The notes below the pieces were generated by a model. It made no database searches, was not told where the DNA came from, and was given only the letters and a program-made list of their open reading frames with translations. Shown one piece after another: positions 53,699-54,977 of a stretch of 64,000 nt of DNA (positions are counted from its first letter, which is position 1; each line of letters starts with the position of its first letter). Source of the stretch: Bryum argenteum (taxonomy: Eukaryota; Streptophyta; Bryopsida; Bryales; Bryaceae); contig CM073330.1 of the NCBI GenBank assembly GCA_037043015.1, forward strand, positions 10,186,512-10,250,511. Reading direction: 5' to 3'. Position numbers and translations under genes: made by a program.

Positions 53699-53707
53699 AA
53701 ATATGTA

Positions 53708-54647
53708 GATAGATAGATAGATAGATAGATAGATAGATAGATAGATAGATAGATAGATAGATAGATAGATAGATAGATAGATAGATAGATAGATAGATAG
53801 ATAGATAGATAGATAGATAGATAGATAGATAGATAGATAGATATGTAGATAGATAGATAGATAGATAGATAGATATGTAGATAGATAGATAGATAGATAG
53901 ATAGATAGATAGATAGATAGATAGATAGATAGATAGATAGATAGATAGATAGATAGATAGATATAGATAGATAGATAGATAGATAGATAGATAGATAGAT
54001 AGATAGATAGATAGATAGATAGATAGATAGATAGATAGATAGATAGATAGATAGATAGATAGATAGATAGATAGATAGATAGATAGATAGATAGATAGAT
54101 AGATAGATAGATAGATAGATAGATAGATAGATAGATAGATAGATAGATAGATAGATAGATAGATAGATAGATAGATAGATAGATAGATAGATAGATAGAT
54201 AGATAGATAGATAGATAGATAGATAGATAGATAGATAGATAGATAGATAGATAGATAGATAGATAGATAGATAGATAGATAGATAGATAGATAGATAGAT
54301 AGATAGATAGATAGATAGATAGATAGATAGATAGATAGATAGATAGATAGATAGATAGATAGATAGATAGATAGATAGATAGATAGATAGATAGATAGAT
54401 AGATAGATAGATAGATAGATAGATAGATAGATAGATAGATAGATAGATAGATAGATAGATAGATAGATAGATAGATAGATAGATAGATAGATAGATAGAT
54501 AGATAGATAGATAGATAGATAGATAGATAGATAGATAGATAGATAGATAGATAGATAGATAGATAGATAGATAGATAGATAGATAGATAGATAGATAGAT
54601 AGATAGATAGATAGATAGATAGATAGATAGATAGATAGATAGATAGA
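53708..54647. repeat. Giant (GATA)n microsatellite, about 235 units
   Basis: Nearly perfect GATA (TATC on the other strand) for about 940 bp, with only three interruptions: ATATGTAG at about 53842 and 53874, and ATATAG at about 53962. It joins the SINE body at 54648 exactly where a SINE tail belongs. The open frames of hundreds of Ser-Ile-Tyr-Leu repeats across it are not genes. Confidence 0.98.
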
Positions 54648-54874
54648 AACTCCGGTCCCTTTCCAAGGGGCCGGCGTGAATGAAGTGTCCGTTCGTAATG
54701 CTAATATCCCGATGGCCACCGGACAAGGGGAAATTGAAATAATACTACTTCCCCCTCTCGAGGGTGGACACTATAACTATGCTAGTTTCTAACCTAGTTA
54801 CCAATGCCTTGAAGATACTTGACATAGTATTGCCCCAAAGGGCTTTGAGGTACCCATACAACAAGGTCCAAAAC
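54648..54874 (-). mobile_element. 5'-truncated SINE whose tail is the GATA tract
   Basis: Minus-strand SINE body, over 90% similar by eye to 51470-51690. It reads GAAACTCCGGTCCCTTTCC at the tail side and stops near CAACAAGGTCC at its 5' end. The composite body plus GATA tail is flanked by a perfect 9-bp target duplication AAATATGTA (53699-53707 and 54875-54883). Confidence 0.9.
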
Positions 54875-54977
54875 AAATATGTACCTCCAAAGAGGAAGAT
54901 GTTGCAAACTTGGTGCTTTTGGGTAATAGTATGATTTCCATTCTTTTACTCTTTGGCATCGTAGAAGTCACCTTTAT

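Follow-up and report, generated by a model that had tools for sequence, protein, structure and literature searches.

A 940-bp GATA array at the tail of a truncated SINE: probable growth after insertion, and a possible SINE/LINE source of the long GATA microsatellites of a moss genome

RTE elements of Lepidoptera seed microsatellites, and slippage during retrotransposition has been proposed as the cause (PMC2887409). In these families, as at the moss locus considered here, a simple repeat lies between target duplications beside the 3' terminus of a non-LTR element, and truncated copies spread the repeat (PMC2887409). Carnivore tRNA-SINEs are similar in another respect, since SINE tails are a source of tetranucleotide microsatellites there too (PMC1634856). 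Some LINEs encoding the RLE endonuclease target microsatellites (PMC4640811).

The window (the whole stretch of 64,000 nucleotides that was analysed) contains a (CTAT)n/(GATA)n array of 940 bp on the minus strand, at 53708-54647, in the position of a SINE 3' tail. It is seen in the sequence and by TRF, which reports 236 copies with 98% matches. Next to it on the same strand lies a SINE body (54647-54871), which is 94% identical to a full copy nearby and corresponds to its positions 127-351. As the body begins at position 127 of this reference copy (51341-51691), it is 5'-truncated. It differs from the local consensus at 9 of 225 positions. At the junction, 54647, the SINE end GGAGTTT is followed by CTAT, and thus the tract starts exactly at the tail position, as the earlier note had claimed. 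The SINE and the array are together enclosed by one perfect 9-bp target-site duplication, AAATATGTA, with the left copy at 53699-53707 and the right copy at 54875-54883; this observation was also correct. The array consists of four perfect blocks of 136, 28, 84 and 680 bp, in that order. It contains a TGTA unit at 53844-53847, with which the left target duplication also ends and which we read as captured, a second TGTA unit at 53876-53879 that is read likewise, and, at 53964-53965, a phase slip of 2 bp. On the CTAT strand, CTACATAT, which is a part of the target duplication, occurs twice inside the array and once at its end.

The sister copies in the window have short tails. The full-length SINE used as the reference (51341-51691, plus strand) is followed by (CTAT)4, 16 bp at 51692-51707. 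A 5'-truncated copy at 56445-56720 (plus strand, 95% identity) carries about 4-5 units ending at 56720. Hence the described fiftyfold difference in size, about 235 units against 4-5, holds. Reference positions 3-222, from the 5' part of the SINE, are represented by a diverged fragment at 22714-22932 (minus strand, 84% identity). Another 3' end of this kind, CACGCC-stem-GGAGTTT lacking the TATC tail, was recognised at 55254-55292 (minus strand) from the sequence and the alignment of 3' ends.

The SINE is a short dispersed element of about 350 bp bounded by target duplications. In 24 of 42 copies the two flanks have a word of at least 9 bp in common, as compared with 0.7% of shuffled pairings; in the other 18 copies the common word is below 9 bp. 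The 42 copies are the 45 SINE matches that reach position 344 and exceed 40 nt, minus three whose array runs off the locus. In one of them (R13) the tail walk overran into the flank, and this copy was scored as a miss. The SINE head contains TGGTGGTTAGGGC and GGTCGTGGGTTCTATTCC, which resemble pol III A and B boxes and may mark a tRNA-like head. ARAGORN found no tRNA in the 64-kb window. At locus L019 (~1451-2168), a SINE copy 99.4% identical to the full copy of the window is nested within another SINE, with the common flank word TAGCATTACGGA.

Several other features of the window were observed. Of two 40-bp tandem arrays (49177-49813 and 50750-51342), the latter has the full SINE (51341-51691) at its end, and a piece of a piggyBac-type transposase (DDE_Tnp_1_7) lies beside these arrays at 48802-49176. 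A sperm-tail PG-rich repeat (SHIPPO-rpt) protein was found at 58911-59612. Another stretch of the window matches the RPE65 family, which includes plant carotenoid cleavage enzymes. The two suggest a land plant whose sperm swim, in keeping with a moss. Inverted ends AACCCCTAACTCTC / GAGAGTTAGGGGTT were seen by eye at 54981-55244, with a related inverted stretch at ~57300-57500; possibly these belong to a small DNA transposon.

We collected perfect GATA/CTAT tracts of at least 34 bp from one assembly of 258.8 Mb in 25 contigs. The left ends of perfect CTAT tracts were searched for separately in each of the four repeat phases, which gave 41, 3, 35 and 7 ends, respectively. The resulting 86 tracts make up 70 arrays. 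Reversed-letter controls, which here count right ends, gave a total of 87. One of the 86 places (C2:22612778) falls beyond the stretches covered, in a complex already counted as L097. On the expected side of the array, the SINE described above was found in 47 cases out of 70 and a related LINE in 16. One more array (R50) is preceded by 12 nt of the LINE end only (E 0.015), and six arrays fail. Thus, R50 included, 64 of the 70 arrays have a SINE or a related LINE 3' end on the expected side. Far from lacking an adjacent SINE, most long GATA tracts (47/70) adjoin one, and the earlier claim that a retroposon seeded the microsatellite is strongly supported both at the locus and assembly-wide. One of the six failing arrays (R1) lies beside the decayed remains of a SINE end, with 85% identity over positions 263-333. 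The array R16 (locus L074, C3:22734828-22736269) is a perfect CTAT array of 1442 bp with no SINE and with AATCATTGTTAT at both sides; one possibility is that the tail alone was inserted. No sign of an element was observed at arrays R35, R56, L097 and L098.

Arrays of at least 100 bp number 38 after incomplete ones were extended, and 35 of these, R50 included, have a SINE or LINE end; open-ended arrays enter these counts at their minimum length. Some sister arrays exceed 940 bp, and lengths go beyond 1.5 kb, as in the tail of R25 (at least 1534 bp). These sister arrays were overlooked in the earlier reading, as was the fact that the SINE is one half of a SINE/LINE pair. Matches to 20-mers in the assembly number 323 for ACAT and 9782 for GATA; on this comparison, ACAT being the sole other motif compared, a general richness in long tetranucleotides was rejected as the source. 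The bulk of the first 100 ACAT matches listed falls in a broken-up ACAT repeat cluster of ~2 kb (C1:25550147-25552378). The strands are unequally represented. There are 25 forward and 45 reverse arrays (p 0.02), and for SINE-type tails the forward and reverse counts are 958 and 1049 at two or more units (p 0.04), 232 and 260 at four or more (p 0.22), 21 and 45 at six or more (p 0.004), and 6 and 19 at nine or more (p 0.01). The imbalance of tails and arrays has no explanation, since contig orientation is expected to be arbitrary.

The LINE was traced via the other long arrays, where the similarity among several elements extends beyond 1 kb upstream (82% over 1547 bp between R10 and R53). The last ~100 nt of these elements resemble the SINE end, and the LINE copies bear the same TATC tail as the SINE. 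The common 3' end is GGCCAT...ACGCC-stem-GGAGTT-TATC; a 3' end with a stem-loop common to both partners is characteristic of SINE/LINE pairs of the stringent type. Nine SINE and LINE 3' ends were aligned and four were folded, and the stem (hairpin) was obtained in all four, with z from -2.5 to -4.5. The region of one LINE copy (L107) with 4 kb upstream contains open pieces with the domains RVT_1 (Pfam, 5.7e-24), RNase H (3.2e-12) and PCIF1_WW (2.2e-11). The PCIF1_WW domain sits between the reverse transcriptase and RNase H (L107 with L020, L055 and L056; C6, ~9404092-9410500). The closest solved reverse transcriptases are R2 chains, at 2e-29 as compared with ~2e-12 for LINE-1 chains, and this identifies the nearest solved relative, not the clade. 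In the C-terminal part, where LINEs of the R2 group have a restriction-like endonuclease, C-x2-C-x9-H-x4-C followed by KPD...IEF was seen by eye; a profile search of solved structures gave no R2 match for the C-terminal pieces, and neither piece is in a Pfam family. To our knowledge, no LINE with a PCIF1_WW domain has been described, and a literature search by title and abstract start found no PCIF1-bearing LINE.

Matches to the LINE protein indicate at least 116 copies in the genome (116 of the 116 scored, from 752 candidates). Among the 37 protein copies on contigs 1-3, five are followed on the same strand by the exact LINE tail word, 480-512 bp downstream, with ~0.06 expected by chance; in the other 32 this word is absent within 2 kb. 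The LINE is the putative mobiliser of the SINE RNA.

The best explanation of the locus, and probably the right one, is that the SINE was inserted by the R2-like LINE with a short tail, and that the tail grew after insertion to ~235 units. The LINE would recognise the common 3' end (hairpin, GGAGTT, TATC repeats) and copy the SINE into the site. Such an insertion would leave a target duplication of 9 bp and a short (CTAT)n tail. The tail would then lengthen to ~235 units via slippage or unequal exchange, and on two occasions the growth would carry bases of the target duplication into the array. Once a tail exceeds some length between ~16 and ~35 units, it seems to enter runaway growth to hundreds or thousands of bases. 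The single target duplication around SINE and array, the common SINE/LINE 3' end, its association with 64 of 70 arrays, the length distribution, the purity and the target-duplication word inside the array are observed; we infer that the LINE did the mobilising, in what order the events took place, that the tail grew by slippage or exchange, and that there is a threshold.

The alternative is that the array was already long when inserted. In that case the LINE reverse transcriptase would have slipped on the tail while priming, producing hundreds of units at once, with later trimming and homogenising only. Slippage during retrotransposition has indeed been put forward to explain the lepidopteran RTE case (PMC2887409). 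We consider this alternative unlikely, as most exact tails are short. Exact SINE-type tail words in the assembly number 2007 with at least two units, 492 with four, 66 with six and 25 with nine, so that 66 of 2007 have six or more; these counts comprise exact matches only and include one LINE family with the same end. If the decay from two to six units is extrapolated, ~5 tails with nine or more units and practically none with 25 are predicted. Of the 47 SINE arrays, 22 are 35-70 bp long and 25 are at least 141 bp long, and lengths between 70 and 141 bp are scarce. One tail (L102) is 70 bp with one unit changed. Over all 70 arrays the gap is unclean, as three LINE arrays (72, 78 and ~92 bp) and R35, an array of 107 bp with no element, fall within it.

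The second argument comes from the flanks. In addition to the 940-bp array, array R48 has the flank word CTTAGGTCTAAATAT once inside and at the array end. Bases of a target duplication or flank thus lie inside arrays at two loci, which requires copying after insertion and speaks against a tail inserted long. These two are among 22 arrays examined; the other 20 have no copied flank bases, and three of the 22 are open at the far end. The third argument is the state of the SINE edge. The end GGAGTTT is changed to GGAGTAT in ten arrays (R3, R11, R17, R18, R21, R32, R33, R47, L104, L106), all of at least 147 bp, and such ends occur beside long arrays only, which again does not favour an array long from the start. 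All ten arrays with GGAGTAT are long, as compared with 11 of 28 with GGAGTT kept (p 0.0008, the comparison being picked post hoc; 10 of 27 and p 0.0006 if one LINE copy is removed). A SINE subfamily was rejected as the cause of the GGAGTAT ends: the eight of the ten copies that are in the alignment have no common diagnostic column.

The arrays are also very pure. Only 18 breaks were found in 29,648 bp of 35 arrays of at least 100 bp (0.06%), a set that includes LINE and element-free arrays and excludes ten incompletely covered loci. The SINE bodies differ from the consensus by 2.6% of pooled substitutions beside long arrays (23 copies) and by 2.2% with short tails (21 copies); these values count substitutions only, in 44 bodies, one body below 80% identity having been dropped. 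Array breaks are thus ~40-fold rarer than body divergence, although the gap overstates the contrast in age, because body divergence includes differences inherited from source copies. On the other hand, a homogenised tail that was inserted long would likewise be pure. Tail length does not rise with divergence of the SINE body (p 0.38, 44 bodies), and the idea that older SINEs have longer tails was rejected. Near-identical LINE copies have very unequal tails. Over 343 bp, R25 and R31 diverge by 0.3%, yet the tail of the former is at least 1534 bp and that of the latter 330 bp; R55 matches R25 at 98.5% across 263 bp and ends in a tail of 72 bp. This could be expected if tails arise long, but it is compatible both with fast growth and with slippage at insertion.

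Taken from one assembly, the copied target-duplication bases, the purity and the edge erosion support growth of the array after insertion, and to this extent the earlier account of a tail that later grew still stands. Its wording as a direct view of microsatellite birth is too strong: seeding and growth are supported, but there is a small chance of a long tail made by slippage at insertion. The word "dated" has to be dropped, as no analysis yielded an age.

Two further alternatives to insertion with a short tail and later growth fare worse. Perfect tetranucleotide arrays are hard to assemble, and the length of the array might be an assembly artefact atop an ordinary short tail; this is very improbable, since there are 38 arrays of at least 100 bp with many different lengths, and internal breaks such as TGTA order the units. 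Preferential insertion of the SINE and the LINE into pre-existing GATA microsatellites, which would agree with the R2-like reverse transcriptase and with the existence of microsatellite-specific LINEs among RLE-encoding clades (PMC4640811), is hardly credible, being contradicted by the duplication enclosing both SINE and array at 53699-54883, by the common flank word of at least 9 bp beyond the tails in 24 of 42 SINE copies, and by the 1941 of 2007 exact tail words with fewer than six units.

A broader proposal is that almost all long GATA microsatellites in this genome derive from the one SINE/LINE 3' end, and that there is a threshold between ~16 and ~35 units. Tails below it would stay short, and those above it would run away to hundreds or thousands of bases, taking up bases of the target duplication at one edge and wearing down the SINE at the other. 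This proposal is tentative, and we hold it with slightly less than even confidence. The birth of microsatellites and the onset of runaway growth are an old question, for which the starting state is usually lacking. Here the common short starting tail is marked by the 2007 exact tail words, and the outcome is visible in dozens of sister copies. The SINE body and the target duplication provide a clock and an empty-site reference for each locus, and the scarcity of SINE arrays at 70-141 bp makes the growth threshold directly testable.

A literature search of partial coverage, by title and abstract start, found no SINE/LINE pair behind nearly all long tracts of one motif, no arrays of such size from retroposon tails, no kilobase GATA arrays and no moss SINE. 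LINEs of the Dualen/RandI clade combine a reverse transcriptase and RNase H with two endonucleases, APE and RLE; in the open pieces of the LINE described here, a reverse transcriptase and RNase H were identified. PMC5348765 mentions RLE three times and contains no mention of Dualen or moss. In Chlamydomonas, SINEs (SINEX) are listed with a tail common to a LINE, RandI (Dualen), and with short tandem repeat ends, (ATT)n or (CTTT)n (PMC3747384). This is a green alga, and the repeat motif is different (PMC3747384). Among solved structures, the R2 reverse transcriptase is the closest by sequence (E 2e-29), but unlike R2 LINEs, the LINE found here carries RNase H and PCIF1_WW, and its copies lie in varied flanks and not in one target. 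The tails of carnivore tRNA-SINEs are A-rich, with motifs such as AAAT and AAAG and tetramer arrays of ~10 units on average (PMC1634856), whereas the moss tail starts out as a tetranucleotide repeat and attains hundreds of units. The lepidopteran elements belong to the RTE clade and account for ~10% of lepidopteran GenBank microsatellites (PMC2887409); here, an R2-like LINE and a SINE adjoin 64 of 70 GATA arrays of at least 34 bp, with a maximum above 1.5 kb. Given the RTE, carnivore SINE, Chlamydomonas and RLE-LINE precedents, this kind of event is therefore known, as are microsatellites from retroposon tails; the unusual part is the near-monopoly over one motif and the kilobase size of the arrays.
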